Part shown: in pieces, positions 21,005 through 61,697 of the stretch
Position numbering within the stretch: the stretch's first letter is position 1
Layout: every line of letters starts with the position of its first letter
Source: Pseudonocardia sp. 73-21
Lineage (GTDB): Bacteria; Actinomycetota; Actinomycetes; Mycobacteriales; Pseudonocardiaceae
Direction of reading: 5' to 3'
Assembly (NCBI RefSeq): GCF_001899645.1
Contig: NZ_MKVV01000053.1
Location: forward strand, 16,849 to 80,848
Length of the DNA: 64,000 nt
Made by a program: the position numbers and the translations under genes
Notes under the pieces: generated by a model
What the model saw: the letters and a program-made list of their open reading frames with translations, nothing else
Told to the model about the DNA's origin: nothing
The model's database searches: none

Positions 21005-21188
21005 AGTCTTCCTCCACCGGCATCGAGCTGAACGAACGAGAAGCCGGAGCATCCCGTGCTGGAACACACTTCGCCGCACGCCTTGCGAATGCGACATCCT
21101 CTCGGTCGGATCATCCATTCGGCGTACTACCCGGAGGCGCTTGGCCGGTTGGCCGTCGTCAGCTAATACTGCAACGGCGCTTCGCCGG

Positions 21189-33718: not shown

Positions 33719-33728
33719 GGCGTCTCCT

Positions 33729-33755
33729 CGGGAGTGGTGGATGGCTTCACTCCCG
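33729..33755 (-). promoter_or_regulatory. Leader hairpin upstream of the sigma-like gene
   Basis: Perfect 8-bp arms CGGGAGTG and CACTCCCG with an 11-nt loop, 10 nt upstream of the minus-strand start codon at 33718. It would occupy the ribosome-binding region in the mRNA leader; possible translational control. Confidence 0.4.
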
Positions 33756-33783
33756 GGGCGGTGCGTCGGCGCGCCGAGGACAC

Positions 33784-33798
33784 GACGTGTGACACGTC
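33784..33798. promoter_or_regulatory. 15-bp palindrome between divergent genes, putative operator
   Basis: GACGTGT-G-ACACGTC, a perfect palindrome with a single central base, 15 nt before the translocase start and 66 nt before the sigma-like start. The position suits a dimeric repressor or activator controlling one or both genes. Confidence 0.5.
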
Positions 33799-33812
33799 CG
33801 TCAGACCGCGCC

Positions 33813-46500: not shown

Positions 46501-47255
46501 CCTTCGCACACCCGCTCCAGGCACTCCCGCGCGACGTCGCCGGCGGTCTCGTCATCGGCCAGTACCCATCGGGTGTAGCTCAGATGGCCCTCGATGAGAT
46601 CCAGCTCGATCGCGGGTTGCCCGGGGTCGATCAAGCTTCGGGCGCGACGTAGCGCGTCGAGGCCTGGATCGACGTCACCGATGTCGTCGCACGCCGATGC
46701 GTAGTCGGCGAGGGCCTGGAGGAGCAGCGGCGCGCCGTCGTCGACGGCAGGCAGCGCCGCAGCCAGCAGCTCGCGCCCGGCCTCGTGATCCGGAACGCTC
46801 TCCTCGGCCCAGGCTCGGTGCAGGCGGGCCATCCCCCGCAGCATGACGACGCCCGGGACGTCGGCGCGGATCGCGTCGAGGTCGGCGACGAGCGTGCCGA
46901 GGTCGCTGGGATCGTGACCGGCGGCGTCGAACCGGGAAACCAGGACCCAGGCCAGGTCCGCCGCCACCTCGTCTCGGTCGATGTCGAGGTGTGCCGGTGC
47001 CCGCCACGCCTGATGGATCTCGTCGCGGGCCTGGTCCCACCGGCGGAGATCGGCGGTCTGTTCGGCCGCGGCCGCGGCGGCGAGCCCGAGACCGTAGTGC
47101 CAGCACACCTCGTCCGGGTGCCCCGTTCCCGCTGCCAGCGCGTCGCCGAACAGCTCCGCGGCGTCGTCGAGGCCCGCCGGATCCCGGCCGTCCAGGGCGT
47201 CGGCCAGCCGTCCCCAGGCGCGCGTGCCGAGCGCGCTCACATCCAGCTGCTCCAT
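43524..47255 (-). CDS. Large helical-repeat CHAT protease (caspase-like)
   Basis: A 1243-aa protein. Roughly 850 residues of TPR-like helical repeats precede a CHAT domain (about residues 880-1243). CHAT landmarks: VLAPFGTLALVPWHA, the catalytic His in LHLACHA (H1092) and the catalytic Cys in VQLAACST (C1136), both intact. CHAT proteins are cysteine proteases related to caspases, often activated by sensor modules in prokaryotic immunity, with TPR-CHAT Csx29 of type III-E CRISPR as a known example. First gene of a minus-strand operon that includes AAA+, zinc-ribbon and coiled-coil proteins. The start at ATG 47255 is preceded by a long structured leader. Confidence 0.88.
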   Translation of the reverse strand: MEQLDVSALGTRAWGRLADALDGRDPAGLDDAAELFGDALAAGTGHPDEVCWHYGLGLAAAAAAEQTADLRRWDQARDEIHQAWRAPAHLDIDRDEVAADLAWVLVSRFDAAGHDPSDLGTLVADLDAIRADVPGVVMLRGMARLHRAWAEESVPDHEAGRELLAAALPAVDDGAPLLLQALADYASACDDIGDVDPGLDALRRARSLIDPGQPAIELDLIEGHLSYTRWVLADDETAGDVARECLERVCEGEDPPPTALLRCAELWSDRGNRTGSLPDLDTAVRRLDAAVLAVDDSDAGMAWLTLGMTHQRRGELGADVDHARAASCFDAALRHGLDDADLVLDAHRWRLEMLDEVLRAGPSDEMVAAAITAHEEGIEALDTAGSAGEGLRAELAMAILRTEIDLFNPAPHTFDRDRMHRLLATARRHPEPHEEWQSLVGIAKGFLQMVDDLMAGRAGGHGDFGVGAFARTARESGHPDVLGPDLARMAALGSVLDASRTGDLGKLDAAALLDGSDGDTTGGFLAAFAELGKLNRRGAPAAEQLAAHDRLMEAVHAMAAADPQDRWISEYQLPFFQAMREMIAPSGKPLPVQPPRTLRGPLADLLDSVTGTAAAGAAIAAAADDPGRQRDELLALESRVAGLPTGSPQHGMAAHTLAIWWLHRAERTHRPDDIEHAVRWCEAASAFDAGPENPLWVQSAMQAAQARRLRGTAEDRARSRELGLAALRGHAWMVLLQSGTEHAVTMARSAAADALRIARWCVHDRVADDLVAALDAGRGLVLHAAVTTRGVGERLRLVGRDDLADEWTLAGGDDSVELLTTPDAALRGDLRRRVLTALTATDSGLLDPPSTPQIRAALQAQGSAALVYLVPADGPEPGLAVVVPAAEPVEVLELPDLGTGPELRHYGEAYTAWHHPEEPQPAEDRRACFETWRARLTDLTRWAWRVAGAELAELAHRLPPGTGEDPPHLVLAPFGTLALVPWHAAAGPEGSGDLADAAVVSTTPSARLLCQAVTRHTGVDGAQLVIGNPSGDLRAAGAEARALVAAFYPEATYLGQPGDGVPDPDGTGSAVEVLDRLRDGSPSLSVLHLACHARAEPAAPGRSSLRLADRWLEVDEILAVRPTQPFELDTVQLAACSTIVSGADYDEAFSLATAFLAAGARTAYGSMWTVPDRYTSRLMFMVHHYRRVEGCTPAVALHRARRWSRDPHRVPPDGMPPALAASWRSALPSDDPVAWAGCLHVGA

Positions 47256-47312
47256 CGTGCTCCTGTCCCTGGTCCGTTGCCCGGGTCGTCGTCCCCGGCT
47301 CCGGTGGGGTTA

Positions 47313-47342
47313 CGCGGGAGGGTGGGGCACCACCCTCCCGCG
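47313..47342 (-). promoter_or_regulatory. 13-bp hairpin in the CHAT gene leader
   Basis: Perfect stem CGCGGGAGGGTGG / CCACCCTCCCGCG with a 4-nt loop, 57 nt upstream of the CHAT start codon. It lies between divergent starts, so it is not an ordinary end-of-gene terminator. There is no U-tract on either strand. It may be an attenuator or an operator. Confidence 0.5.
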
Positions 47343-47369
47343 CCGTCCACTGACGGACGGGGCCGTCAG

Positions 47370-47402
47370 CTACAGGACGTTGTCGTCGTCGTCACCACGC
47401 AC
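47370..47402 (-). CDS. Putative 10-codon leader peptide
   Basis: GTG-initiated mini-ORF of ten codons (VRGDDDDNVL) behind a GAGGAGG ribosome-binding site 5 nt away, ending 27 nt before the strong hairpin and 115 nt before the CHAT ATG. The run of four Asp codons recalls attenuator leader peptides. Chance occurrence cannot be excluded. Confidence 0.25.
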   Translation of the reverse strand: MRGDDDDNVL

Positions 47403-47575
47403 GGCTGCCTCCTCGGGTCGGGCCGGGCCGGCGCGGTGCGCGGGATCACCCCGTGCACCGGCCCGACACCCGCAGGCCGGTGCGTCGCGCCGCGACCGCC
47501 AGATGTCGTCGAGGGGCTGACGGACCGCCCACGCGGCGCGCTACAGTCCGGCCCGCACTGCGGGAGGAGGCAGAT

Positions 47576-48379
47576 GTGGGACCGACCACCTGGGACGGTC
47601 ACGTCCGGCTCGACTACCTGCCGGACAGCCGCCGACTGCAGGTCACGCTGATCACGGTGGAGCCCACCCGCGAGGCCCAGCTGCGACGGGGGTTGCGAGC
47701 CGGGTTCGTGATCGACGACCCCGACGGCCCCCCGGCGTTCGTGGCCGCCGACCTGCCCGCGGCCTTCCTGCCCGCCGACCTGGGGGAGCTGCTGGGCCCG
47801 CGCCTGGCCCCGGAGGCCCGGCTGGTCATCGGGGACGAGCCTCAGGTGCGCTGGTTGCGGCTCGGCCTCAGCGAGGTCGATGACCTGGCCGAGACGTGGG
47901 CGCCCTACCGCGCGGTGGTCCTGGCCGGGGTGGAGCAGCCGAGCCGGATGCGCGCTGTCGGAGCCTGGGCAGGTGGTCTGTGGGCCCGGCTGGGGGTCGA
48001 GGACATCGTGGCCGGTATCGCCGCGCTCGGTCCTCCCACCCCTGCCATGGGCGATGTGCGCTACGACCATGACGACCCGTTCGGAGGCGAGCCGGAGGAA
48101 CCGGAAGTGCTCGGATCGTGGGAGCTGCCCGCATCGTTGGCGCAGGCCGCCGGTGTCGAGGCCCGGCTGCAGTGGTCCGCGGCGGGTGGCCTGGTCACCG
48201 TGACCGCGCGCCGCGTGGCGGCTCCGGGCGCACCGCTGGCCGTCATGTTCGATGACGGCCGCGGTCGTTGGACCGTGCTCGAGCCTGCTGGGGAGGGTGT
48301 GCTCCGGGCCGCCATCGCCAGCTCCGCCGATCCGACGGTGCTGCCCGCGGTCCGGGTGCGGGTCGGAGAGCAGCCGTGA
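47576..48379 (+). CDS. Unknown 267-aa protein
   Basis: A soluble, acidic alpha/beta protein starting at GTG 47576 behind GGGAGGAGG. The first part looks beta-rich (HVRLDYLPDSRRLQVTLITV), the C-terminal 100 residues form another beta domain (VEARLQWSAAGGLVTVTARR). No family recognised. It overlaps the next gene (GTGA) and is divergent from the CHAT gene. Confidence 0.65.
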   Translation: MGPTTWDGHVRLDYLPDSRRLQVTLITVEPTREAQLRRGLRAGFVIDDPDGPPAFVAADLPAAFLPADLGELLGPRLAPEARLVIGDEPQVRWLRLGLSEVDDLAETWAPYRAVVLAGVEQPSRMRAVGAWAGGLWARLGVEDIVAGIAALGPPTPAMGDVRYDHDDPFGGEPEEPEVLGSWELPASLAQAAGVEARLQWSAAGGLVTVTARRVAAPGAPLAVMFDDGRGRWTVLEPAGEGVLRAAIASSADPTVLPAVRVRVGEQP

Positions 48380-49989
48380 GTGCCGCTCAGGAGGTGCCCG
48401 GCCGGCCCGAACGCGAGCCGGCGGACGCGGCGGCGGCGGTCCTGGCCATGCTCGACCCGGAGGTCCTCGAGCGTCTGATCGACCAGGTCGGTTCTCGCGG
48501 TGAACTGGTCGAGCAGATGGCCACGCAGATCGTGGCGCTCCAGGTCAGGCTGGCAGCGCGTCGGGTGTCGGTACCGTCCTGGCGAGCCGAACATCTCGCA
48601 GCGGCGACCCTGTCCGACGCTCCGGGCGTCCAGCAGAACGTCGAGCACGCCGCTCAGCGCTATGCGAAGATCACGGCCGATCCGGACCTGCCGGTCGAGG
48701 TCGCCGTGCTCGTCGGCCGCGCCCACGACGCCGAGACCGTCACCCTGATGGGGCGCACGTATCGGGGTCTTGCCGAGGTCGCAGCACAGCGACCGGCGGA
48801 GCCGCGGATCTTCCAGCGCATGGTCGTGGCGGCCCTGGCCGCAGCCGGGGTGCCGGATGTGGGGCGGCGGGCGTGTGCGGTGCTGGACCGGGGTGCGGCC
48901 TTCGCTGCCGGCCACCGCGCGGTAGGCGGGGAGGTGCCGCCGATGCCCGTGTTCGGCAGCGCCGACTTCCTGGTGGCCGTCGCCGGCTACCGGGTGGCGC
49001 TGGACGAGGCCGGGGGCCGATCCGTCGTGGAGCCGGTCGCCGAGGTCGGCGCCGCGTTGCCGGAGCTGGCCCGACTACTGCGGCTGGGCTTGACCCGCCC
49101 CTCACGGGAGCTGGACCGCGGCGGTGTGGACGAGCCCGACAGCGCGTGGTTCCTCGAACAGATCGCGGAGTACCTTGGCGGGCACAGCGCCCGCCGCTGC
49201 GTCACGGCGCTGGACCGGGGGCTGCGCCGCGCGCGGTGGCGGCCGCAGCCGTCCACGGCGCTCGATCCGCGGACCCGGCGTGCGGTCGGGGTCGTCGAGG
49301 TGGAGCCGTCGGAGCCGAACGTCACCGAGTTGGCCGGCCGGATCGTCGCGTCGCTGGTACGGGCGCCTGCCGCAGCTGCGGCGGCAGCGTGGTTGCGTGG
49401 CGTCCGTCCGGTCGACGAGCAGGATGATCTGGACGAGTTGCTGAACGGCATCTGGCGGCTGCGCGCCGAGCTCGCGACCCGGCCCGTGGATGACGACCCG
49501 GGCCCGGTCGACCCCGCGCTCGTCGCGGTGGTCGAGGCGCGCCTCGGCGACGGCGTCGTCGGCCCGGTCCGGCGGCTCACGGCGGCATTACCGCCACTGT
49601 GGAGCCGGCGCGATCCGGCGATCCGGCTGCTGACCGCGCACCTGCGGGCCGCAGGGAACAGACCACCGGTCGCGCGCCTGGTCGCGGCGGTGGTGGCCTG
49701 CGGGCCCGGGCAGGCCGCCGTGGCCGGCGACGTCGCCGCACACGAACCGGGCACGGCCTGTGTCCGCTCCGAGGAGTCGGGAAGGTGTGTCGCGCGGACG
49801 GACGCGGCGGCGCTGCCGCCGGCGCTCGTCTGCCCGGCCCGACCGTGGCCGGAGGACGGGCTGGTCGAGAGCCACCGCACCCTGGCCCAGCGCGACGGCC
49901 GTGACGACGCGGGGTCGGCGGCACGCACCTGGCGGACCTACAACGGGCCGTGGGCGGACGTGGTCTGGCTCGTCAGCTCACGGGTGTGA
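48376..49989 (+). CDS. Unknown helical protein, 537 aa
   Basis: A largely helical Ala/Arg/Val-rich protein. Residues 10-75 look coiled-coil (LDPEVLERLIDQVGSRGELV); the rest is a series of helix pairs, perhaps a repeat superhelix. No catalytic motif is seen. GTG 48376 overlaps the upstream stop. The last 12 bp overlap the 3' end of the convergent gene. Confidence 0.65.
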   Translation: MSAAQEVPGRPEREPADAAAAVLAMLDPEVLERLIDQVGSRGELVEQMATQIVALQVRLAARRVSVPSWRAEHLAAATLSDAPGVQQNVEHAAQRYAKITADPDLPVEVAVLVGRAHDAETVTLMGRTYRGLAEVAAQRPAEPRIFQRMVVAALAAAGVPDVGRRACAVLDRGAAFAAGHRAVGGEVPPMPVFGSADFLVAVAGYRVALDEAGGRSVVEPVAEVGAALPELARLLRLGLTRPSRELDRGGVDEPDSAWFLEQIAEYLGGHSARRCVTALDRGLRRARWRPQPSTALDPRTRRAVGVVEVEPSEPNVTELAGRIVASLVRAPAAAAAAAWLRGVRPVDEQDDLDELLNGIWRLRAELATRPVDDDPGPVDPALVAVVEARLGDGVVGPVRRLTAALPPLWSRRDPAIRLLTAHLRAAGNRPPVARLVAAVVACGPGQAAVAGDVAAHEPGTACVRSEESGRCVARTDAAALPPALVCPARPWPEDGLVESHRTLAQRDGRDDAGSAARTWRTYNGPWADVVWLVSSRV

Positions 49990-52071
49990 GACGCCAAGGG
50001 CCGCCAGCCGGGCAGCGAGTGTGACGACTTCGGCGTGGCGGGTGTGATGCTCGCCGCCGCCGACGGTGGCCTCCTCCCAACGCCGCACCAGCTCGACGAG
50101 CTGGGCGGCCGTGGTCAGGTCTGCCGGGTCGATATCCGGTACCCGCAGTTCGGCGGCCAGCAGCAACGCCGGCGCGGCCAGTAGCGCGAACCGGCACGCG
50201 TTCTCGGTCGGCGGTTCGCCGTCGAGCAGCCTGCCGGTCTCGGTGGCGGTGAGGGCCCGGCAGATCCAGGCCCGTCCCTGCTGGGCCCATCGCATCGCCT
50301 GGGCGATCTCCCCGCGGGCGCGTGCCGCCTCGGCGAGGCCGGTCGAGGCGCGGGTGGCGACCTGCAGGGCGTTGCGCAACGGTGCGGAGTGCCCGGTGCG
50401 GATCGCGAACTCGGACCGGGCTGGGATCACCACCGACGTGAAGAGCCCGATGGCGGTGCGCAGGTCGGCCTCGTCGGTCGAGGCGGCGAGGAAGGCAGCG
50501 TAGTTCTGCAGGTGGTAGCCCGCGAGGCCGGGAAGCCGGGGAAGCGGCGAGTCGAGGTGGAACCTCGGGACCTCCAGGGCTTCGTGGAAGGCCGCCCACG
50601 CCCGGTGCAGCCGCCGGTCCAACGCCGCGGGCGACGGGAGACCGGCGTCGGGTCGCTGGGCGTTGGTGCGCCGCACGGCGAGCAACTCGACACACGCCGA
50701 GGAGATCACCTCGGCTGCCGCGCCGCGGTCGAGCAGCCCGCGCGCCAGCAGGTTCTCGCAGCGATCCAATCCTGCGAGCAGGTCCGTCAGCGGTGCCCGC
50801 AGGTCGTTGCGCTGGTCGGGCCGCAACGTCTGCACGCGCATGTCAGCTGTGCGGCAGGCCGTGAGGGCGGCGACCGGGTCGTCGGGGTCGAGCACCGCAT
50901 CGGCCAATGCGGCGAGCTGTTCGAGGACCGGTCCGATCGTCTGGCGGGAGGCATCACGACCGCGCGGGGAGACCTGCAGGTGAGCCAGGACGGTGTACAA
51001 CCCGAGCACCAGCGCCCGCCGCGTGAGCAGCGGCAGGCCCTGGACGTCGGAGGCGTGCGGGATCGCGGGCAGGACCTGCGGCGGCTCCGACCCGGGCCCG
51101 GGGGCGCCCTGCGCGCGAGTCGCGTGCCGGACGAACTGGTCGACCAGCCCGGATGGGAAGAGCAGCGCCTCCACGGCCAGCTGGCCCGGCTCGCGTTCGC
51201 TGAGCCACAAATGGCTGGCGTCGGCGGGGGTGCCCGCAGCGAGCAGCCGGCGCAGCAGCAGGTCCACGGCCTCGGCATCGCGCAGCCGACCGGCGAGCTC
51301 CGCGGACAGCTCATCGTCGCCGTCGGGGGGCTCTGCCGGCTGACACGCGGCGAAGGTGTGGTCGGCCACGTCGAGCAGGAACGGCTGGGTGGTGGTGGCG
51401 CCACGGGCCAGGGGGGCACCGACCTCGCAGCGGGTCAGCGGGAGGTCGCCGAGCCCTGCGGCCAACGGGAGTTGCCAGGACTGCACGAGCTCGTGCTGAA
51501 TGGCGCGGGCGTGAATCCCCGCCGCGAGCAACGCGGGCTGCGAGCGGAAGGTCTCGACGACCAGGCCGGTCCAGGCGGCGAGGCGCAGCCGGGTCGGCAG
51601 CGGTGACCCGTTCGGATCGACCAGCAGGGCCAGCGCGGTGCCGATCGCGTCGGTGACCGGATCGAGCAGCCGGTTGACCGCGGTGAGCACCACGGCTGCA
51701 CGGGTGTCGGGTCCGAACCGGTTGAGCGTCGCATTGGCGATCTCGTTGGGCAGGCTGGCGCGCGGCCCGGCCAGCCCGATCCGCTCGACGACCTGCCACG
51801 CGCCTGCATGCGGTGTCGTCAACCGCTGGGCGTCGGCGCGGGTGGGTAGCGGCGCCCCCCGGCTGATCTCCGACAGGGTGACGCGGGCGTAGTCGGACAC
51901 CCAGGTGCGGCGGCCGAACGGCCCGTCGGGCCACGGCACGCCGAACAGCGGTGCGATCTTGCGGGCCAGCCGTGCCGCGGCGACCTCGGCACGGCTCTCC
52001 GGGATGTCGGGCACGACCGCGGGCAGCAGCGGCATGTGATCACCGTAGACGAACGATGCGATGCCCGCCAT
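49978..52071 (-). CDS. Unknown large helical-repeat protein
   Basis: A 697-aa protein composed almost entirely of predicted helices, with tetratricopeptide-like alternation in the last 250 residues (LQVATRASTGLAEAARARGEIAQAMRWAQ-type segments). No catalytic motif. ATG 52071 is used; in-frame ATG 52035 begins just before the better-conserved-looking MPLLPAVVPDIPE. It shares a short promoter region with the sigma-like gene at 52129. Possibly a sensor or scaffold of the CHAT cluster; inferred from context only. Confidence 0.65.
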   Translation of the reverse strand: MAGIASFVYGDHMPLLPAVVPDIPESRAEVAAARLARKIAPLFGVPWPDGPFGRRTWVSDYARVTLSEISRGAPLPTRADAQRLTTPHAGAWQVVERIGLAGPRASLPNEIANATLNRFGPDTRAAVVLTAVNRLLDPVTDAIGTALALLVDPNGSPLPTRLRLAAWTGLVVETFRSQPALLAAGIHARAIQHELVQSWQLPLAAGLGDLPLTRCEVGAPLARGATTTQPFLLDVADHTFAACQPAEPPDGDDELSAELAGRLRDAEAVDLLLRRLLAAGTPADASHLWLSEREPGQLAVEALLFPSGLVDQFVRHATRAQGAPGPGSEPPQVLPAIPHASDVQGLPLLTRRALVLGLYTVLAHLQVSPRGRDASRQTIGPVLEQLAALADAVLDPDDPVAALTACRTADMRVQTLRPDQRNDLRAPLTDLLAGLDRCENLLARGLLDRGAAAEVISSACVELLAVRRTNAQRPDAGLPSPAALDRRLHRAWAAFHEALEVPRFHLDSPLPRLPGLAGYHLQNYAAFLAASTDEADLRTAIGLFTSVVIPARSEFAIRTGHSAPLRNALQVATRASTGLAEAARARGEIAQAMRWAQQGRAWICRALTATETGRLLDGEPPTENACRFALLAAPALLLAAELRVPDIDPADLTTAAQLVELVRRWEEATVGGGEHHTRHAEVVTLAARLAALGVSHP

Positions 52072-52091
52072 CGATCGAACCGACTATCTTC

Positions 52092-52128
52092 TTGACACGC
52101 CGAATACCTAGACACGACTATTTTCGGC
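52092..52128 (+). promoter_or_regulatory. Putative promoter of the sigma-like gene
   Basis: A TTGACA hexamer at 52092-52097 stands 18 nt upstream of a weak -10-like GACTAT (52116-52121); initiation would fall at or next to the ATG at 52129, giving a leaderless mRNA. A direct repeat CGACTATYTT (52081-52090 and 52115-52124) flanks it and could bind a regulator. Confidence 0.4.
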
Positions 52129-53079
52129 ATGAGCTCACCCTCTCGGCCGTCCCCCGACCCCTATCCGGGGCTGGCCGGCCTGCCCGACGGACTCATGCGG
52201 GAGGTGGTCGACGCAGTGTGGTTCGAGTCGGGGCGAATGCGTGCGTCGTTGCACCGGCTGCGTCGCGTCCGCGCGTGTGACGTCGTCGTGCGGGTCGCGG
52301 GCTGCGGGTCGCTGTTCGTGGGTGGCGAGTGCCCGTGCCGCGACTTCGTACTCGACATGCTCGTCGAGGCCGACCGGTTCCTCGCGCGGCACGAGCCGTC
52401 CGGTCTGCGCAACCCGCCCGGGGCCGTGCGGGCCCACGTCCGCAGGCGTGCCCAGGAGTGGACGCGTCGCCGGCGGGCCGACGCGGGCGCCCAGGCCCGC
52501 ACCGACCGGCTCGACGCGAGCGAGCAGGGGCGCCGCCTGCCCGACGCGTACCACCGCGCCCTGCTGCGCAACCTCGCCGACGAAGCCGGATCACTGGCGT
52601 TGCTCGGTGACGAGCGGGGTCTGCTGCAGCGGCTCGCGGCGCTGGCCGCGAACCAGTTCGGCGGCGAAGTCGCGGACCACCTGGGTCGGGTGGTCGCGGC
52701 CTTGCCGCTGGTGGAGGAGGCCTGTCGGGCGGGTCGCCGCGTGCCGGCGCGGGACGGCTCCGGTCCGGTCACCTGGTGGGAGCGCTACATCGAGGAGCCG
52801 CTCGGGCGCCGCGACCGGATCGACACGCAGCCGCTGGACGAGCTCGACGACGTCGAATCCGCGATGCCGGACGGTGGATGCGACGAGCTCGTGCTGGGGA
52901 TCGTGGTGCGGGCGGTTTCGGGGCCTGGACGCTCGGGGGTGGCAGCCCGGTTGCATGGAGCGGTCGCCGAACTGGTGCGGCTGCAACTGATGTCTGCTGG
53001 TGCCGCCGGTCTGTTCACGGCTGATCCGGCCCGGGTGCGGGCGGCCGCGGAGCAGGCGTGGGTGCTGGCGTCGGCATGA
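52129..53079 (+). CDS. Sigma-like helical protein, second copy
   Basis: A 316-aa helical protein built like the product of the gene at 32738: a cluster of acidic/hydrophobic helices, then LRNPPGAVRAHVRRRAQEWT followed by RRRRADAGAQARTDRL, equivalent to the IRNLEGWL...RRRRG block of that protein. The basic helix recalls sigma region 2.4. An added CxC (ECPCRDF) is present near residue 67. No sigma region 4 is evident. Probably a paralogous regulator; fold assignment is moderate. Confidence 0.5.
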   Translation: MSSPSRPSPDPYPGLAGLPDGLMREVVDAVWFESGRMRASLHRLRRVRACDVVVRVAGCGSLFVGGECPCRDFVLDMLVEADRFLARHEPSGLRNPPGAVRAHVRRRAQEWTRRRRADAGAQARTDRLDASEQGRRLPDAYHRALLRNLADEAGSLALLGDERGLLQRLAALAANQFGGEVADHLGRVVAALPLVEEACRAGRRVPARDGSGPVTWWERYIEEPLGRRDRIDTQPLDELDDVESAMPDGGCDELVLGIVVRAVSGPGRSGVAARLHGAVAELVRLQLMSAGAAGLFTADPARVRAAAEQAWVLASA

Positions 53080-53163
53080 CTCGCGTCGGCGTAACACCGC
53101 GCCCGGATGTGACGACGAGCACAGGACGCTTCGTGTTTATCCACATCGGACCGAGGGATCGCC

Positions 53164-53487
53164 ATGTCGCTACCTCTGACCGTCGCGGGTCGGTCGCCCG
53201 TCGACCCGATCCGACTGCGCTGGGGCGGCGGCGGGGCCGTCGTCCTGGGTGTCCTTGCGATGTTCAACGGAGCCGGCGGGTTGGTCGTAGGGGCGCTGCT
53301 CGCACTGCTGGGCGTCGCCACCTGGGGCGTCACGGCCTTCGGGGCCACTCCATGGCCGGAGCTGAGCAGCCCGAAGAAGGTGGTAGCGGCCAGCGGTGCG
53401 GCGATCGGCCTTGCCTTCCTCTACCTGTTCTTCGCGATCTTCTTCCTCATCATATGGATCATCCGGATCGCCACCCAGTCCCGCTGA
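53164..53487 (+). CDS. Small membrane protein, 107 aa
   Basis: Two to three transmembrane helices: AVVLGVLAMFNGAGGLVVGA continuing to about residue 58 and a strongly hydrophobic C-terminal span (LAFLYLFFAIFFLIIWII). Short charged cytosolic tail. First gene of the plus-strand run leading to the CRISPR locus. No family recognised. Confidence 0.65.
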   Translation: MSLPLTVAGRSPVDPIRLRWGGGGAVVLGVLAMFNGAGGLVVGALLALLGVATWGVTAFGATPWPELSSPKKVVAASGAAIGLAFLYLFFAIFFLIIWIIRIATQSR

Positions 53488-53498
53488 TCGGAGCCGAG

Positions 53499-53630
53499 AT
53501 GCCCCACGTCGAGAACTACACCGTCGGGGTGCGCCCCATGGACTGGAGTGCGGCCATGGACCGCACGCTGATCGCCGCCTTCGACAGCCGCGCCGAGGCC
53601 GAGGAATCCATCCGCCGGGCCAGCCGCTAG
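53499..53630 (+). CDS. 43-aa small protein
   Basis: Starts at ATG 53499 behind GGAGCCGAG and ends 8 bp before the CHAT gene. The C-terminal half is a likely amphipathic helix (SRAEAEESIRRASR). The tight spacing on both sides supports translation. Unknown; could be a pro-peptide-like or regulatory partner of the adjacent CHAT protease. Confidence 0.5.
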   Translation: MPHVENYTVGVRPMDWSAAMDRTLIAAFDSRAEAEESIRRASR

Positions 53631-53638
53631 CAGGGCCG

Positions 53639-54934
53639 GTGGAGCTCGTCCTCCGCGCCGCCGACCACGGTACGACCTACCTGACGTGGCGTTGTCCCGA
53701 CGACCCCCGGGTCGCCGACTTCGCCGCGCTCGATCGCGACGATCTCGGTGCGGTCCTCGACGAGCTGCACGCGGCGCTGCCTGGGCGGCGTCCGGGTGAG
53801 GACGGCCGGGCCGCCGCCGAGCGGGCACTCGGCACGGGCGCGTTCGCCGACCCGGCACGAGAGGCCGTGCTGTCGACGGCGCTCTCGGCTGCCGTGCTGC
53901 CCGGGCGGCTGGCCCGCCGGCTGACCGCCGCTGATACCGCCGCCCATGTCCGGCTGCGGGTGATCCCCAGCCCGCGGCTGGCGCAGGTCCCGTGGGAGCT
54001 GCTGGTGCTGCCGGACGGTCGGCGGCTGGTGGAGGTCGCCGACGTGTGCCACGACCCGCCCGCGACCCTGTTCGCGGGCCGTGGACGTTCGCCGGGGCGC
54101 TGGGCCGATGTTGCGCACCAGCCCGTGGTGTACCTGCTCGAGCCGCGCCCACCCGAGCCACGCTACCGCCCGGTGCTCGACGAACGAGCCGATCCGGCGG
54201 GCGTGGCTGCGCTCGCGCGATGGTGCGACCAGCGCGTCGTCGACGGACGACTGCGTGCCGACGACCGGCCGGACGCACTGCACGGCGCGACCGGGCGAGC
54301 GGCCCTGGGTCGTCGACTGCGCGAGCATCCCGCGTCGCGGCTGGTCTACTTCGGCCACGCCGGGGCGGCCGACGACGAACCGGGTTCGGCCGCGCTGTAT
54401 CTCGCCGACTCGTCCGCGGTCTACGGGCTGGCCCGCGCGATCGGCAACCACCGCCCGTTCACGGCGCTGGACCTGCTGCACGGCACCGCGACCGCCGGCG
54501 CAGCGGAGTCCGGGTGGCCGGTCGACACCCGGGCGGCCGGACATCGCATCTGGCCGATGCCGCAGCGGGTGGCGATCATCGGGTGCAGCAGCGGCGGGGA
54601 CCACCGCTTCGCCGAGCCGTTCGGCCTCGTGCTCGCCTGCCTCGACGCCGGCGCCGAGCTCGTCACCGCCACCCGGTGGTCACTGCCGTCCTTCGAGGCG
54701 TTCCGGCTCGTGCGACCGGAACTGGCCGCGACGGCGCAGCGACCGACGGCCGGGCTGATGCAGGCGGTCGACCGCTGCCACGACCACGACGACCCGGTCG
54801 GCGCGCTGGGGGACTGGCAGCGGGAGCGACTCGCGGCCTGGCAGGCGGGCGGGGACGTCGTCGACACACCGCTGCTGTGGGCCGCGTTGGGCACGCACGT
54901 CGCACCCTCCCGTGCTCTGGCGGTGGCACCGTGA
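53639..54934 (+). CDS. CHAT-domain cysteine protease
   Basis: A 431-aa stand-alone CHAT protein. The family motif PWELLVLP is near residue 118; the catalytic His is in LVYFGHAGAA (H240) and the catalytic Cys in VAIIGCSSGGD (C316). The 100-residue N-terminus has no repeats; the TPR part is encoded separately by the next gene (GTGA overlap), so the pair equals a split TPR-CHAT. CHAT proteases act as caspase-like executioners in several anti-phage systems. The same-strand order CHAT, TPR, CARF-like, Cas6, CRISPR suggests a CRISPR-linked role; that is inference. Confidence 0.85.
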   Translation: MELVLRAADHGTTYLTWRCPDDPRVADFAALDRDDLGAVLDELHAALPGRRPGEDGRAAAERALGTGAFADPAREAVLSTALSAAVLPGRLARRLTAADTAAHVRLRVIPSPRLAQVPWELLVLPDGRRLVEVADVCHDPPATLFAGRGRSPGRWADVAHQPVVYLLEPRPPEPRYRPVLDERADPAGVAALARWCDQRVVDGRLRADDRPDALHGATGRAALGRRLREHPASRLVYFGHAGAADDEPGSAALYLADSSAVYGLARAIGNHRPFTALDLLHGTATAGAAESGWPVDTRAAGHRIWPMPQRVAIIGCSSGGDHRFAEPFGLVLACLDAGAELVTATRWSLPSFEAFRLVRPELAATAQRPTAGLMQAVDRCHDHDDPVGALGDWQRERLAAWQAGGDVVDTPLLWAALGTHVAPSRALAVAP

Positions 54935-56709
54935 CCGATCCTGAGATCTCCCGGCTGACTTGGGAGCGCCTCGAGGCCGAGCTGGCCGGCGACCCGCTCC
55001 GGACCGCGCGCCTCGACATGATGATCGGCATGCGCCACCGGGAGTCCGGCGATTTCGACGCGGCCGAGAGCGCCTTCTCCGACGCCCTGCGCACCTTCCA
55101 CGAACACGAGCTGCCCTACGAGTCCGCAATGGCCGCGGTCTTCCTGGCCGACGTCTACTTCGTCACCGACCGCCTGGCCGAGGCCGAACTGGCCTACGAC
55201 ACCGCGCACGGCACGTTCGAATGGCTGGGGGCGGCGGCCGAGGCCGCCGGTAGCCTGCTGGGCACCGGCAAGGTGCGGGTGGCCGGGCAGCGCTGGGTTG
55301 ACGCCGAGACCTCCCTGTTGGCCGCCCGGGCGTACTTCGCCGCCGCGCGGATGGACGCCGAGCTGGCCGACTGCGACCTGCACCTCGGCCGGGTGTTCTG
55401 GGAGACCGAACGGCTCGACGCCGCCGAGCGGGCCTACACCGGCGCGAGGGCCACATTCGTGCTGTTGGGCGCCCGGGACGAGGTGGCTGACTGTGACAAC
55501 ATGCTGGGCAACATCTACGACAACACCGGTCGTTACCAGCTGGCCGAGCGGTCCTACGTCGATGCGCTGGTGGCGTTCGACCGTCTGGGCCGGTCGGGTA
55601 ACGCCGCGCGCTGCCGGTTCAACCTGGCCGACCTGTGCGACGTCACCGGCCGGTTCGATGAGGCCGAGGTCCATCTCGTGCGCGCGCGCGACGCCTTCCA
55701 CGACGGCGAAGAACCCGCCGAGGCGGCTCGCTGCGACCTGGCACTGGGCAACCTGCGGTTGCGAGCCGGTCGTCTTCCGGAGGCGGCGGAGGCGCTGGGG
55801 GTCGCACGGGAAGCGCTGTCCGGGCTCGACGAGGACCGCGACGTCGCCGGGTGCGACCTGAGCCTCGGAGTCGTGCACCGCGCCGCCGGTCGCGCCGTCG
55901 CCGCGCAGCAGGCCCTGCAGCATGCGCGGTCGGAGTTCGCCCGTCTGGGGCATCCGCGGGAGGTCGCGCACTGCGAGGTGAACCTCGCTGCCCTGCACGC
56001 CGACGAGCGACGCCTGGGCGAGGCCGAGGAGCTCTTCACGCTCGCCCGCGACCGCTACCGCGAACTGGGCCTGGAACCGCAGGCCGCCGACTGCGAGATG
56101 AACCTCGCGAACGTCTACGCCGACTCCGGGCGCCACGAGCGCGCTGAGCGCAGCTACACGACCGCGCGCGAGCTGTTCCAGCGCAGCGGCCTCGTCGCCG
56201 AGACCGCGCGGTGCGACATCAACCGCTCGCTCGCGCGCCTGCAGGCCGCCCCCGCCGCTGCGGGCCACGAAGCCGTCGCTGCTGCGCTGGACGACATCCT
56301 GCCGGCCGTCCTTGCGCTGGACGCCGTTCGGTTTCGTTTCCCCCGCACGGCCGAGCGCGCTGCGTGGGCGGCGAGCATCGCGCTCGGCACGGAAAAGGCG
56401 TTCGAGCTCGCGGCGCGGCTCGGGGAGGCCGCGCTGGTCGCCGAGCTGGTCGAGGCCAGCATCGCCGCCGGCGTCCACGCTCTCCCGACCGCACCGACGC
56501 TCCCGGCTGCGCGCCCGCGTCCGCTGCTCGGCGGCCCACAGATCCTCGACTCGGGTGCGGGGCGGCTGCTGCCCGGCGCGGCACGGCCCATCGCCCCGGC
56601 GCCCCGGCTGCGCATGCCTGACGGGCGGATCGCGCTCGCCCGCTACGTCGAACTGGCCCAACTGCGGTACGGGGCGACGAGCCGCGCCGAGGCAGTTGTG
56701 GACGTGTAG
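54931..56709 (+). CDS. TPR protein paired with the CHAT protease
   Basis: A 592-aa protein with about ten 40-residue TPR units from residue 25 to 430, each of the form A-x-C-x-x-x-LG...GR...AE..Y..A...F. Eight consecutive units carry Cys at the third position (ADCD, ADCD, ARCR, ARCD, AGCD, AHCE, ADCE, ARCD). The last 160 residues are helical plus a Pro-rich stretch and an RLRMPDGRIALARY tail. Overlaps the CHAT stop by 4 bp. Likely binds and controls the protease, as TPR parts do in fused TPR-CHAT proteins. Confidence 0.85.
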   Translation: MTDPEISRLTWERLEAELAGDPLRTARLDMMIGMRHRESGDFDAAESAFSDALRTFHEHELPYESAMAAVFLADVYFVTDRLAEAELAYDTAHGTFEWLGAAAEAAGSLLGTGKVRVAGQRWVDAETSLLAARAYFAAARMDAELADCDLHLGRVFWETERLDAAERAYTGARATFVLLGARDEVADCDNMLGNIYDNTGRYQLAERSYVDALVAFDRLGRSGNAARCRFNLADLCDVTGRFDEAEVHLVRARDAFHDGEEPAEAARCDLALGNLRLRAGRLPEAAEALGVAREALSGLDEDRDVAGCDLSLGVVHRAAGRAVAAQQALQHARSEFARLGHPREVAHCEVNLAALHADERRLGEAEELFTLARDRYRELGLEPQAADCEMNLANVYADSGRHERAERSYTTARELFQRSGLVAETARCDINRSLARLQAAPAAAGHEAVAAALDDILPAVLALDAVRFRFPRTAERAAWAASIALGTEKAFELAARLGEAALVAELVEASIAAGVHALPTAPTLPAARPRPLLGGPQILDSGAGRLLPGAARPIAPAPRLRMPDGRIALARYVELAQLRYGATSRAEAVVDV

Positions 56710-56786: not shown

Positions 56787-57020
56787 GTGCTGACGAGGGG
56801 CGACGGAGCGGATCCGCTGACCGCGTCGGAACGCGCACGGTTGCTGGCGATGCTGGTGGCAGGCCTGCACACCCGGCGTGCCCCGACCGGTGCGGCTGTG
56901 GCCCTGCGCCGCCAGATCGTGGCATGGTCGCGAGCGGGGGTAACGACGTGTCCCGACGCAGCGACGAGTGTCCGGTGGAGCGATGAGGACGATGGACACC
57001 GGTGCGGCGGAAGCGGCTGA
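56787..57020 (+). CDS. Possible 77-aa protein
   Basis: GTG-initiated ORF with a helical core (ASERARLLAMLVAGLHTRR). Its 3' end overlaps the CARF-like gene by 38 bp in another frame. Codon bias is acceptable over the first 50 residues. May be a small partner of the CARF-like membrane protein or a spurious frame. The gap 56710-56786 shows nothing clear. Confidence 0.35.
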   Translation: MLTRGDGADPLTASERARLLAMLVAGLHTRRAPTGAAVALRRQIVAWSRAGVTTCPDAATSVRWSDEDDGHRCGGSG

Positions 57021-57798
57021 GGCGTCGACAGCGCTGGCCCGGCTCACCTCGCGGCTGCGGCCGGCCCGTGAGCTCGCCGAGGGCGCGACCCGCTACCTGA
57101 ACACGCTGTTGATCGGTGTCCTGCTGGCCCCGGTCGCTCCCGATGTCGCCGTGGACCTTTTCGGCGCGACGCTCCCGTCGTGGCGCAACCCGCTGCTGCG
57201 CCTGCTCGCCGTTCTCGCGGTGTTCGCCCTGTGCCTGTCGGCCTACCGATGGCGGTTGCACGCGGCTCGTCGTCGCGCACGGCGTCGTGGATACCGGCTC
57301 GCCGGCGTCGAGTCACGTGAGGTCGTCGTGTTGCCGATCGGTTTCCGCACCCGGTACGACGCACGCGGGCGCCGGACCGGGTCGATGAGCGTGGCGAACT
57401 GGTTGCTCGACGCCGCACGCCCGTCCGTCGTCATCGGCGTGACCAACCCGCAGATTCCCGCCCAGCAGGTGGAGCAGTTGCGCGCGGAGCTGGCCGTCGA
57501 CGGGATCGCGTTCGAGACCGTGTGTCTCAGTGCGGTGCACGATCCGGAGGTCGCCGTACGTGATGCGGAGGAGATGCTGGTCGGACAGTTGCAACTGCGA
57601 GGTCTGGCCGAGCGGTCGTGCTACGTCGACACCACGGGTGGCACAGTGGCGCTGTCGATGGCGATGTTGCGAGTCGCGGCGTTGATCGGGGCGCAGTGCA
57701 CTTACGTCTCGTCGCGGTTCGAGAACAATCAGCCGGTGCCCGGCACCCAGGTCGGTCACGCATTCGATCCCCGGACCCTGCTCGGAGTGGCGACGTGA
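56983..57798 (+). CDS. Membrane-anchored CARF-like protein
   Basis: A 271-aa protein. Two transmembrane helices (about residues 34-55 and 67-85, LLRLLAVLAVFALCLSAYRW) are followed by a basic stop-transfer and a Rossmann-like cytosolic domain: VVVLPIGFR, PSVVIGVTNPQ, and the motif CYVDTTGGTVALSMAML, matching the D-x-TGGT signature of CARF domains (Csm6/Csx1/Cam1 type). CARF domains sense cyclic oligoadenylate made by Cas10 during type III immunity; a membrane CARF would disturb the membrane or signal to it. ATG 56983 follows GGTGGAG. Cas6 starts 13 bp downstream. CARF assignment is from motif only. Confidence 0.65.
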   Translation: MRTMDTGAAEAAEASTALARLTSRLRPARELAEGATRYLNTLLIGVLLAPVAPDVAVDLFGATLPSWRNPLLRLLAVLAVFALCLSAYRWRLHAARRRARRRGYRLAGVESREVVVLPIGFRTRYDARGRRTGSMSVANWLLDAARPSVVIGVTNPQIPAQQVEQLRAELAVDGIAFETVCLSAVHDPEVAVRDAEEMLVGQLQLRGLAERSCYVDTTGGTVALSMAMLRVAALIGAQCTYVSSRFENNQPVPGTQVGHAFDPRTLLGVAT

Positions 57799-57811: not shown

Positions 57812-58492
57812 GTGCCAGCCCTCATCGACCTGACCCTCGACACCACCGTCACCCCGGTACTGCATCCGGCCCGCATCCATGGCGCGGCCTGCACACTGCT
57901 GCGCACCCACGAGGGCGGGCGCCTGTTCTCGGCGGCGCCGCCGCGGCCCGAAGGGCGGCGCGCGCGGTGGCGGCTGGGCTGGCTGGCCGCTCAGCCGCCG
58001 ACGCTCGCGCCGGGCCATGTGACCTTCGGTGACACCGAGCACGCGGTACTTGATCGCCGCGTTGTCCCGATCAGTCACCTGGAGCTCAGCAACACTCCGC
58101 CACGCCGACACGCCGCTGTGCAGGTCATCAGCCCGATGTACTTCTCCCGCAACGGCCGCGACCATCCGCTCCCCGACCCGGTGCTCGCCATGCAGTCGCT
58201 GATCCGCCGCTGGGACGGCACGGCCCCGCGCGGGCTGTCGGTCCCGGCCGACGCCGCGCGCTCGCTGATCGACGTGGTGTGGTTGGCCGGGATGGACGGG
58301 CGAACCGTCGCGGGGCAGGTCGGGGCGCGGACGTTCCAGATCGGGTTCGTCGGCGATGTCGAGTTCGCCCTCACCCGCCGAGCCACCAACGCCGACGCCA
58401 CTCTCTTTGCGGCGCTGCTTGCCTTCGCTGAATTGGCCGGGCTCGGGGCTCAGACCGGCCACGGCTTCGGCTCGGTGGCACTGCGTCCATGA
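57812..58492 (+). CDS. cas6: CRISPR-associated endoribonuclease Cas6
   Basis: A 226-aa Cas6, the RAMP nuclease that cuts pre-crRNA within repeats. Diagnostic parts: VQVISPMYFSRNGRDHPLPDP followed by SLIRRWDG (the sPtxf...PdP..l..sl..rWn block of Cas6), and the C-terminal glycine-rich loop LAGLGAQTGHGFGSV. GTG 57812 follows GAAGGGA. It directly precedes the CRISPR leader and is the only processing enzyme in the locus; the repeat hairpin and 8-nt handle fit Cas6 cleavage. The N-terminal catalytic His cannot be assigned with certainty (H23 and H37-region candidates). Confidence 0.85.
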   Translation: MPALIDLTLDTTVTPVLHPARIHGAACTLLRTHEGGRLFSAAPPRPEGRRARWRLGWLAAQPPTLAPGHVTFGDTEHAVLDRRVVPISHLELSNTPPRRHAAVQVISPMYFSRNGRDHPLPDPVLAMQSLIRRWDGTAPRGLSVPADAARSLIDVVWLAGMDGRTVAGQVGARTFQIGFVGDVEFALTRRATNADATLFAALLAFAELAGLGAQTGHGFGSVALRP

Positions 58493-58679
58493 TCGCTGCT
58501 CGAACAGATCGACTTCGGTGAGCCCGAAAATCCATGATCGCTCGCAGGCGCGTTCGCGCTGGTCAGCGGGTCGCCGAGGCCGTTCAGGCAACCACAGTTG
58601 ATCACTATAGATCAACTCCACGGGGTTGCTCGCAACGATCTCCATCGGCCCTGGTCAGAGGCCTCGCCGAGAGGGTAGG
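58493..58679 (+). promoter_or_regulatory. CRISPR leader
   Basis: 187 bp between cas6 and the first repeat with no coding frame of note. It is judged the leader because the first repeats are identical while the last two at the opposite end are degenerate. A perfect 22-bp palindrome (58596-58617: arms AGTTGATC and GATCAACT, centre ACTATA) lies 63 bp before the first repeat and stands out as an AT-rich island; it may hold the array promoter (TATAGA) or an IHF-like/adaptation anchor. Confidence 0.6.
58596..58617. promoter_or_regulatory. 22-bp palindrome in the CRISPR leader
   Basis: Perfect 8-bp arms around ACTATA. The TATAGA inside could serve as a -10 element. Candidate site for a regulator or for leader recognition by the Cas1-Cas2 integrase. 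Confidence 0.5.
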
Positions 58680-59356
58680 GTCGCTATCGGTAGCCCGACG
58701 AACAGGGCATAGAAACGGCATCGACGATCAGTGTCTCCGAAACGGAGAGCGTCGCTATCGGTAGCCCGACGAACAGGGCATAGAAACCGGAAGTAGTCGG
58801 CCAGACCGCTGAAGTGCTCGGTCGCTATCGGTAGCCCGACGAACAGGGCATAGAAACGTGGCCTAGTGGAAGAGGTTCATCACCGCAGTGGTCGCTATCG
58901 GTAGCCCGACGAACAGGGCATAGAAACCTTGTCGAGCGTCGGGCTGATGGGTCGAGCTGTCGCTATCGGTAGCCCGACGAACAGGGCATAGAAACACAGC
59001 ACCAGCACGGTTGCGATTGCCAGAACTGCGTCGCTATCGGTAGCCCGACGAACAGGGCATAGAAACTCACTCGTCGTAGACGTAGATGTACGAGCCCTGA
59101 AGCGTCGCTATCGGTAGCCCGACGAACAGGGCATAGAAACGTGATCGTGCGCAGCGTGCCCATGTCCGCAGACACGTCGCTATCGGTAGCCCGACGAACA
59201 GGGCATAGAAACACTTGAGGCGGCGGAAACCGCTAGAAGCTCAGCCGAGCGAGTCGCTATCGGTAGCCCATAAACAGGGCATAGAAGCGTTGTCGACCTT
59301 CGGGGTCAGCGGCGCGCTGGTCGTTATCGGTAGCTCGATGAACAGCGCATAGAGCC
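58680..59356 (+). CRISPR. CRISPR array, 10 repeats and 9 spacers
   Basis: Repeats start at 58680, 58751, 58821, 58891, 58959, 59030, 59104, 59176, 59253 and 59320. The first eight are identical 37-mers beginning GTCGCTATCGGTAGCCCGAC and ending CATAGAAAC. Spacers are 34, 33, 33, 31, 34, 37, 35, 40 and 31 nt. Within each repeat GCCC and GGGC pair around an 8-nt loop, leaving a 3' ATAGAAAC: exactly the 8-nt handle expected from Cas6 cutting at a stem base, as in type III systems. Repeat 9 has a 1-nt shorter loop but keeps the stem; repeat 10 has several changes and loses it, marking the trailer end next to RT-cas1. Confidence 0.97.
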
Positions 59357-59382: not shown

Positions 59383-59397
59383 GTGACATTACGTCAC
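59383..59397. promoter_or_regulatory. Palindrome upstream of RT-cas1
   Basis: GTGAC-ATTAC-GTCAC, nested within an AGGTGA...TCACCT pair, 55 nt before the preferred GTG start of RT-cas1. Candidate operator or promoter element for the adaptation genes. Confidence 0.4.
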
Positions 59398-59451: not shown

Positions 59452-61191
59452 GTGGGCATTCTCTTTGCGCGAGCCTTCACCGAGCAGGCGTTGCTCGATG
59501 CGTGGGACACGGTCCGAGCCGCGGCACTTGCCGACGGGCAGCCCGACGCGGAGGTGGCGCGGTTCGAGGACGGAGCCGCACGCCGCATCGCGGAGCTCGC
59601 GGCGGAGCTGGCGGCGGGGGAGTGGGAGCCGCAGCCGGTGCGACGGGTGGAGATTCCGAAGCCCGGCGGCGGGGTGCGGCGGCTCGGGGTGCCGCCCCTG
59701 GCTGACCGGGTGGTGGAACGGGCGCTGCTGACCGTGCTCGACCCGGAGATTGACCCGCGGCTGTTGCCGTGGAGCTTCGCCTATCGGCGCGGGCTCGGAG
59801 CGCGAGACGCGGTGGCGGCGCTCGAGGACGCCCGCGACACGGGGCTGGGTTGGGTCGCGCGCGCCGACGTGAAGGACTTCTTCGAGAGGGTGCCGCAGTG
59901 GGAGGTGTTGCGGCGCCTGCGCGAAGCCGTCGACGACGAGCGGGTCGTGCATCTGGTCGGCATGCTGCTCGACCGCACCGTCGCCGGCGGGCGGGCCGCG
60001 CCGCTCGACCGTGGGCGTGGCCTGCACCAGGGCAGCGTCGTCTCACCGTTGCTGAGCAACCTCTACCTCGACGTGTTGGAACTGAACTCCGGCAAGAGCC
60101 ATGTGGCGTCGTTCGACGGTGGCGTGCGGTTCCTCGGCGAGACGGTCACCGCCTCCACCCTGAATGCGGCCGAGGCGGTGTCGCACCCGCTGGAGACCTC
60201 GGTGTACGTCGACCGCCAGGGCAGCCTGATCCGTGTGCGCGGGGAGAACCTGGTCGTGGTCGACGGCGAGGAGGCGCTGCTGCGACTGAACCTGCGCCGG
60301 GTTCGTCAGGTGACCTGCTACGGACGGGTGGGGCTGACCACCGCGTTCCTGCACCGCGCCCTGGAGCGGGGCATCGAGGTCGTGCTGCTCGACCGCGGCG
60401 GGAGTCTGGGTGGGAGGCTCACTGCGCCGTGCGCGTCGGACCCGACAGTCCGCCGTGCCCAGTACCGGGCGGCCGACGACCCCGACACTTGCCGCACGAT
60501 CGCCGCCGCTCTCATCGCCGGGAAGATCGGCAACATGCGGGTGACGCTGCTGCGGGCGGCACGCCGCCAGGACGACCTCGACGCGGCGATCGGCGCGGAA
60601 CGTCTCGCCGCGCTGGAGGCGCAGCTGCCCGATGCCGCGAGCCTCGACGTGCTGCTGGGGCTGGAGGGCGCCGCCAGCCGCGAGTACTTCCAGGCGGCCC
60701 AGCGGATGGTCGATCCCATGTTCGGCTTCACCGCCCGGCAGCGCCGCCCGCCTCCGGACCCGATCAACGCGATGCTCTCCTACGGCTACACGCTGCTGTG
60801 TCACGAGGTGATCGCGGCCCTGGAGGGAGCCGGTCTGGACCCGCTGGTGGGCGTCCTGCACCAGCATCGGTGGGGTCGCCCGGCCCTGGCCCTGGACCTG
60901 ATGGAGGAGTTCCGGCCGATGACCGTCGACGTCGCCGTGTGGCGCCTGACCGGCTCCCGCACGGTTCGCGCGGAGCAGTTCACCGTCGAGCCCGACCTCG
61001 GCTGCCGGATGGGCGACGACGCGCGGGCCGCGTTCCTGGCCGCCTACGAGCGCCGCATGCTGACCCTGACCACGCACCCGGCGGCCGGGCGGCGGGTGTC
61101 GTTCCGGGTGGCGATCGGGGTACAGGCCAAGGCGCTGGCCGCGGCACTGCTCGATCCGGGGCGCCCCTACCGCGCTCTGCGGTGGAAGTGA
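59452..61191 (+). CDS. cas1: Reverse transcriptase-Cas1 fusion with an internally deleted RT
   Basis: A 579-aa fusion. GTG 59452 is preferred (AAGGTGG nearby); an open frame from 59383 adds 23 residues. RT part (residues about 1-235): IPKPGGGVRRLGVPPLADRV, the motif A region VARADVKDFFERVP (D139) and GLHQGSVVSPLLSNLYLD (190-207) are group II intron-like. The YADD block and flanks, normally 50-60 residues, are missing: residue 210 runs straight into LNSGKSHVASFDGGVRFLG, the block after YADD. Cas1 part (249-579) is intact: E404 (LGLEGAASREYF), H470 (VGVLHQHRWGRPALALD), D482. Spacer integration should work; reverse transcription should not. Confidence 0.9.
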   Translation: MGILFARAFTEQALLDAWDTVRAAALADGQPDAEVARFEDGAARRIAELAAELAAGEWEPQPVRRVEIPKPGGGVRRLGVPPLADRVVERALLTVLDPEIDPRLLPWSFAYRRGLGARDAVAALEDARDTGLGWVARADVKDFFERVPQWEVLRRLREAVDDERVVHLVGMLLDRTVAGGRAAPLDRGRGLHQGSVVSPLLSNLYLDVLELNSGKSHVASFDGGVRFLGETVTASTLNAAEAVSHPLETSVYVDRQGSLIRVRGENLVVVDGEEALLRLNLRRVRQVTCYGRVGLTTAFLHRALERGIEVVLLDRGGSLGGRLTAPCASDPTVRRAQYRAADDPDTCRTIAAALIAGKIGNMRVTLLRAARRQDDLDAAIGAERLAALEAQLPDAASLDVLLGLEGAASREYFQAAQRMVDPMFGFTARQRRPPPDPINAMLSYGYTLLCHEVIAALEGAGLDPLVGVLHQHRWGRPALALDLMEEFRPMTVDVAVWRLTGSRTVRAEQFTVEPDLGCRMGDDARAAFLAAYERRMLTLTTHPAAGRRVSFRVAIGVQAKALAAALLDPGRPYRALRWK

Positions 61192-61697
61192 GCGCCTTCG
61201 TCGTCGTGGTCGCCTACGACATCGCCGACGACGGCCGCCGCGAGGACGTCGCCACGCTCCTGTCGGGCTACGGACCGCGGGTGCAGCTGTCGGTGTTCGA
61301 GTGCGAGGTGCGCTCCACCGGCGACCTGCGGGCACTGCGAGCCGCGCTGCGCGAGCGGATCGACCCCCTGGAGGACCAGGTCCGTGTCTACCCCACCACC
61401 ACGCAGACGTTCTCCGAGCGGGTGATCATCGGCGCCCGCACGGTCGAGGAACGCGCCGACTACTGGATCGTGCGCTGACAGACGTTCCCGCGATGCGTGC
61501 GCACGCTCCTCGGTGACGATCCGCGCGGCCCGCGGCAGGTGCACGCGCAACCACGCCTGCAACCGGGCCGCGTTGCCGTCGCGGGCCAGACCGACGAGCG
61601 TCGCGGCGTCGGCGGGGCCCAGCGCGGCAAGGCATCGCCGACCGATCCGCCGATCGCGTCGCAGCTCGGCCTCCGCACGTGCGTCCGGCCCGTTCAC
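61167..61697 (-). CDS. ORF downstream of the OmpA lipoprotein, running antisense into cas2
   Basis: Starts at GTG 61697, overlapping the OmpA-like gene stop (GTGA). The first 70 residues have a convincing helical composition (LAALGPADAATLVGLARDGNAARLQ-type sequence, split by a basic stretch) and good codon bias. From about 61480 onward the frame simply mirrors cas2 and looks non-genuine. The natural 3' end of this gene may have been lost when the CRISPR locus was placed here. Function unknown. Confidence 0.4.
   Translation of the reverse strand: MNGPDARAEAELRRDRRIGRRCLAALGPADAATLVGLARDGNAARLQAWLRVHLPRAARIVTEERAHASRERLSAHDPVVGAFLDRAGADDHPLGERLRGGGVDTDLVLQGVDPLAQRGSQCPQVAGGAHLALEHRQLHPRSVARQERGDVLAAAVVGDVVGDHDDEGAHFHRRAR
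61188..61478 (+). CDS. cas2: CRISPR-associated protein Cas2
   Basis: A 96-aa Cas2, the structural partner of Cas1 in the spacer integrase. Ferredoxin-like fold with VVVAYDIADDGRRE (conserved Asp), LLSGYGPRVQLSVFEC and the C-terminal VRVYPTTTQTF. Normal length. GTG start overlaps the stop of RT-cas1 (GTGA), so the two are co-translated. It is the last gene on this strand; the following minus-strand ORF converges on it. Confidence 0.95.
   Translation: MSAFVVVVAYDIADDGRREDVATLLSGYGPRVQLSVFECEVRSTGDLRALRAALRERIDPLEDQVRVYPTTTQTFSERVIIGARTVEERADYWIVR

Follow-up and report, generated by a model that had tools for sequence, protein, structure and literature searches.

The RT-Cas1 gene and its internal deletion

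The window analysed here, a stretch of 64,000 nucleotides from a contig of Pseudonocardia sp. 73-21, carries a locus of clustered regularly interspaced short palindromic repeats (CRISPR) whose adaptation gene, a fusion of a reverse transcriptase (RT) to the Cas1 integrase, occupies positions 59452..61191 of the forward strand, on which the array, its probable leader, cas2, cas6, the CARF-transmembrane gene and the nearby CHAT and TPR genes described below also lie. RT-Cas1 proteins normally reverse-transcribe RNA and deposit the resulting DNA as immune memory. In the window gene the RT half is short of 44 codons, and RT catalysis has, by its sequence, almost certainly been lost. The open reading frame runs uninterrupted from a GTG at 59383 to the stop codon at 61189-61191; the likely start is the GTG at 59452, with AAGGTGG just 5' of it, which gives a protein of 579 amino acids (P0002). 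Among Pfam families, Cas_Cas1 is nearly full (profile positions 1-282 of 283; residues 274-556 in the 602-residue frame), whereas RVT_1 is covered at positions 1-138 of 205 only (residues 91-233 in the same frame). The RT is fused N-terminally to Cas1, the domain order characteristic of the family.

Alignment to the homologue P0003 and to other homologues places the deletion junction between V208 and L209 (60073..60078), where ...NLYLDV is joined directly to LELNSGK... and 44 residues are absent, leaving 579 amino acids instead of the usual 623. The gap takes away one half of a palm helix, the hairpin that bears YxDD and the helix after it, with the frame kept, so that the catalytic motif expected of the family is missing. 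An earlier sequence-only reading had proposed precisely such a loss of the YADD block. The homologue alignment bears this out, as it does the preservation of the frame, while the estimate of some 50-60 missing residues gives way to exactly 44.

The RT remnant 5' of the junction (59452..60075) comprises the fingers, the motif A aspartate, the QGS block and the first part of the palm helix: ADVKDFF, correctly reported as retained, starts at residue 138 and QGSVV at residue 193 (579-residue numbering). The segment kept 3' of the junction (60076..60138; LELNSGK...RFLG) begins at residue 209 and includes K215, which occupies an invariant column across 56 sequences and aligns with the motif-D lysine at chain residue 577 of the Thiomicrospira structure 7KFT; with a numbering offset of 3, the latter probably corresponds to K574 of PMC8102632. 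The Cas1 domain (60199..61188) has its catalytic Glu, His and Asp all in place as E405, H470 and D482. It was thus rightly described as intact, with the glutamate moved by one from the number 404 first assigned to it. Judged on these features, the gene is descended from the RT-Cas1 family, yet lacks the full catalytic equipment of its members.

Rarity and age of the allele

How unusual is such a loss? From each of three homologue searches 120 proteins were aligned, namely the best 120 of 318 near relatives, of 1678 members of a Campylobacter-type group and of 638 members of a second actinobacterial group, which gives 360 proteins including the query proteins, from lists that may overlap. In the alignment, 357 of these 360 listed homologues carry the [YF]xDD motif at the corresponding site (118/120, 119/120 and 120/120 per list), and the RT active site appears to be almost always retained in the family. 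Besides P0002 itself, two proteins are without the motif, both through losses other than that of the window gene: P0096, the second exception in the near-relative list, has 451 amino acids and a larger in-frame loss extending into Cas1, and P0127, a Campylobacter-type Cas1 protein of 500 amino acids from a cluster of 19 members, begins seven residues before the motif-D block and is without YADD. The full Cas1 Glu/His/Asp set is incomplete in ten of the 360 (8, 1 and 1 per list), many of them short or with altered ends. Damage to RT-Cas1 in public sequence is therefore not restricted to the RT, and the ten Cas1-side losses against three of YxDD speak against the latter being specially frequent.

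The closest homologue among the listed matches, P0003, is 98% identical in the shared part and carries the segment with YGDD. The two proteins differ at 9 of 505 aligned residues; with the border placed at residue 229, two of the differences fall in the RT, one of them at the first residue of P0003, and the other seven in Cas1. So few differences, beside a YGDD-bearing partner of such identity, indicate that the deletion is recent and marks a young allele. The RT remnant of P0002 exhibits no sign of faster change relative to P0003, and a deletion this young is one with little record of later selection. Its edges appear to share 1-3 nt of microhomology, as judged by comparison with P0003 at the protein level and with less closely related genes at the DNA level; intact relatives have no long repeat there. 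By these alignments the window gene represents an uncommon and young allele within an otherwise normal family and not a member of an RT-less lineage.

The surrounding CRISPR system

The RT-Cas1 stop codon is overlapped by cas2 (61188..61478; PF09827, E=3.2e-18). Upstream lies the array (58680..59356), composed of eight identical 37-nt repeats followed by two degenerate ones at the RT-Cas1 end. The position of the degenerate repeats points to a probable leader at the opposite end (58493..58679), within which an inverted repeat, TTGATCACTATAGATCAA, is found about 64 nt before the first array repeat. The array repeat was not found elsewhere in the genome at up to three mismatches, arrays with other repeats not having been looked for. 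Next come cas6 (57812..58492; PF10040, E=1.3e-15) and a CARF-transmembrane effector (56968..57798; PADLOC CARF8--CARF_TM, E=5.4e-105).

Beyond the window's end, locus L024 of the same contig holds three Cas7-type genes, Csx19, a Cas10 with GGDD and a CARF-HEPN-like gene. The Cas10 GGDD, Csx19 and several Cas7-like subunits identify the effector as type III-D. The CARF-HEPN-like gene (L024:2199-4508) adjoins it, which brings the candidate cyclic-oligoadenylate effectors of the system to at least two. To judge by their genes, Cas2, Cas6, the array and the type III-D effector with its Cas10 GGDD look intact, and the only Cas1 match in the genome is the RT-Cas1 itself.

A free-standing CRISPR RT that might compensate for the deletion was considered and rejected, as the only other RT matches in the genome are two, on contigs C70 (profile positions 1-126) and C78 (positions 112-204, holding a stop and near the contig start). 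Both may derive from a single RT of the group II intron-like kind that was split by the assembly.

RT lesions in other actinobacteria

Four overlapping surveys of actinobacterial genomes gave matches in 6/390, 7/394, 5/397 and 4/396 genomes, 17 distinct genomes altogether. Two with a Cas1 match only (G1200 and G1280) were left out, leaving 15 readable genes that combine an RT with a Cas1, three of which (G445, G630 and G738) are interrupted by contig ends. YxDD is present, in frame with the segment that follows it, in 12 of the 15 (G065, G153, G202, G323, G378, G445, G630, G722, G738, G752, G878 and G1184), while the RT centre is lost or cut off in the remaining three: the window gene, G050 and G596. 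G050, of the same genus (C34:34984-36848; L005, L028), has a one-nucleotide frameshift, known from one assembly, about eight codons after FGDD, and its Cas1 is out of frame. The RT-frame stop TGA of this gene overlaps a GTG of the Cas1 frame at the linker between the two domains, a possible restart site. In its locus Cas2 lies 2.4 kb downstream, and upstream are Cas6 and CARF-TM along with weak matches to Cas10 and Cas7. G596 (L052) shows an in-frame loss of 244 codons that removes the greater part of the RT together with the beginning of Cas1 and, judged against G722, unites two copies of a short repeat. G596 and P0096 bear different RT-into-Cas1 in-frame deletions in closely similar Protofrankia-like genes. 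The RT-Cas1 frame of locus L002 is identical in reading to that of G378 (L039), a genome of the same family as the window's, and on this ground the window's genome falls in the family of Saccharomonospora sp. NB11.

Even among the 12 genes with YxDD, frame breaks occur elsewhere in G202, G738 and G878, and G630 is in pieces; some of the breakage is accordingly decay of the usual kind, or reflects sequencing errors in draft assemblies. Lesions on the Cas1 side are no rarer than those at the RT centre. Both same-genus genes from one survey (2/2) are broken at the RT centre, but two named Pseudonocardia proteins in the near-relative list carry the motif (P0007, YSDD; P0024, YGDD), which indicates that its loss is not general in the genus. 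A broader reading would hold that actinobacterial RT-Cas1 repeatedly loses RT catalysis via small lesions while the Cas1 side survives, so that populations carry RT-plus and RT-dead alleles and modules slip back to DNA-only memory, with the LxLNxxK segment kept as a Cas1 interface. We consider this generalization doubtful, the more so because of the excess of Cas1-side losses over YxDD losses in the 360 proteins.

Consequences for adaptation

What could the deletion mean for the function of the module? The likeliest consequence would be DNA-only adaptation, a view that rests on the analogy with mutants of Thiomicrospira and an RT-less protein of Marinomonas. In the Thiomicrospira Cas6-RT-Cas1-Cas2 system in vitro, mutation of an RT active-site Asp or of the RT-helix Lys, whose side is turned towards the active site of Cas1, is reported to lower RNA ligation by more than 80% and DNA ligation by 20-33% (PMC8102632), and a Marinomonas protein without the RT domain is described as taking up spacers from DNA (PMC11014452). 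We favour, with some reservation, the reading that the RT-Cas1 of an otherwise complete-looking type III-D system, recently stripped of 44 RT palm codons, runs as a DNA-only adaptation module. A small deletion with little microhomology would have removed the 44 palm codons. To judge from the mutants of relatives, the loss of the hairpin with YxDD and of the helices on either side would abolish reverse transcription and 3'-dN tailing of RNA, which would leave little or no capture of RNA spacers. The Cas1-Cas2 part would probably still integrate DNA protospacers, and adaptation from DNA alone may feed the RNA-sensing effector, as happens with the spacers of the engineered Marinomonas RTdelta-Cas1.

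On this analogy the window protein is best read as a natural counterpart of the RTdelta-Cas1/Cas2 of Marinomonas mediterranea as presented in PMC11014452: both appear to combine a Cas1 integrase with the absence of RT function, although in Marinomonas the RT domain was removed by engineering and the N-terminal Cas6 kept, whereas the window protein has undergone a natural, internal loss of just 44 codons. The Thiomicrospira complex (7KFT/7KFU), as described in PMC8102632, has RT and Cas1 domains homologous to those of the window protein, but its RT is intact (FADD) and Cas6 is fused to it. RT-less type III Cas1-Cas2 modules (compare PMC7515739) would share the predicted DNA-only substrate, yet have no RT domain at all, while most of it is kept here. 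With the actinobacterial RT-Cas1 fusions of type III systems (for example P0003, P0004, P0024 named Pseudonocardia alni) the common element is the RT-Cas1 gene, with which Cas6 and Cas2 share a stretch of DNA at L002 and G050; the window protein differs in lacking the 44 residues bearing YxDD. A literature search, covering papers in excerpt, returned no described case of a natural RT-dead RT-Cas1, which is no proof of absence; Streptomyces RTs with WGDD are mentioned in an excerpt of PMC6013744 as distant sequences set aside.

Several observations weigh against DNA-only adaptation. Five spacer cores have no exact match in viral contigs, and two whole spacers match only their own array among 100 genomes, so that none of the spacers tried attests use of the system after the deletion. 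In vitro, the Marinomonas RTdelta-Cas1/Cas2 is reported to integrate RNA already tailed with DNA at its 3' end, and faster than the full protein (PMC11014452), so the module would be restricted to DNA only if nothing else tails RNA. Core palm elements are removed, and in two structure predictions, built on 56 and 55 of the 120 near-relative proteins, model confidence drops near the gap (55/47/67 against 72/58/78 for residues 101-130), which together suggest that the protein might misfold. Finally, a deletion would keep the frame without any selection in one case out of three.

The chief competing explanation is that the whole fusion is destabilized, adaptation is lost and the array persists as a frozen record for the type III-D effector, the gene being an early pseudogene. 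The missing palm elements and the lower confidence around the gap would fit such a state, as would the plain lesions of other actinobacterial RT-Cas1 genes (the frame breaks of G050, G202, G738 and G878 and the G596 deletion entering Cas1), the ten aligned proteins without a full Cas1 triad, which show that broken copies are not unusual, and the shortness of the array, with eight intact repeats. We regard this outcome as a serious but less probable one than a working DNA-only module.

An assembly or sequencing artefact, by which 132 nt of a gene complete in the strain went missing from the assembly, appears highly improbable. The sequence-only reading held that a close homologue with the motif would tell against a real deletion; P0003 is such a homologue, and its possession of the segment favours an artefact to that extent without establishing an assembly error. 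However, the intact relatives lack a long edge repeat for an assembler to collapse, the missing nucleotides make up whole codons, and the P0002 protein cluster (4 members, 13 contigs) includes a contig of 137,097 bp, longer than the 136,772 bp of the window's own, although cluster membership is no proof of the deletion on all 13. The missing long repeat and the longer contig make a collapse unlikely, and the deletion is real as far as can be told from the assembled sequence. Least probable of all is selection of the RT remnant as a non-catalytic RNA- or Cas1-binding domain: the segment from LELNSGK onward is kept, its K215 aligned to the Thiomicrospira RT-helix lysine, and the LxLNxxK block is where P0127 begins and the window protein resumes, two RT-loss proteins of different groups, but the deletion is too young for selection to be visible and the segment is the physical link to Cas1, whose retention needs no special role, so that a selected structural role has no support yet.

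The natural pair of 98% identical alleles, with and without YGDD, would allow what the RT adds to the spacer content to be read from arrays and not from overexpression. It bears on the reasons for which RT-Cas1 is retained and on whether DNA-mode adaptation suffices. At least one survey discards disrupted sequences (PMC5513706), a practice by which such alleles would be missed.

Genomic surroundings

Plasmid origin of the locus was rejected: a plasmid collection gave no near DNA match, and at the protein level the best location that spans the greater part of the query, in Rhodococcus ruber, reaches 34% identity. Upstream of the CARF-transmembrane gene lie a CHAT-domain protein (53396..54934; PF12770, E=1.5e-08) and a TPR protein (54928..56709; PF13424, E=1.7e-22), whose association with the system is uncertain. 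The surroundings are rich in defence-related genes (window positions 15021-35867 and 43524-56709), with a UvrD-like helicase, two CHAT proteins and the TPR protein, as well as a DrmD-like helicase (17648-21274), a protein kinase (25304-27715) and an ATPase like mads_8/HerA (33549-35867).
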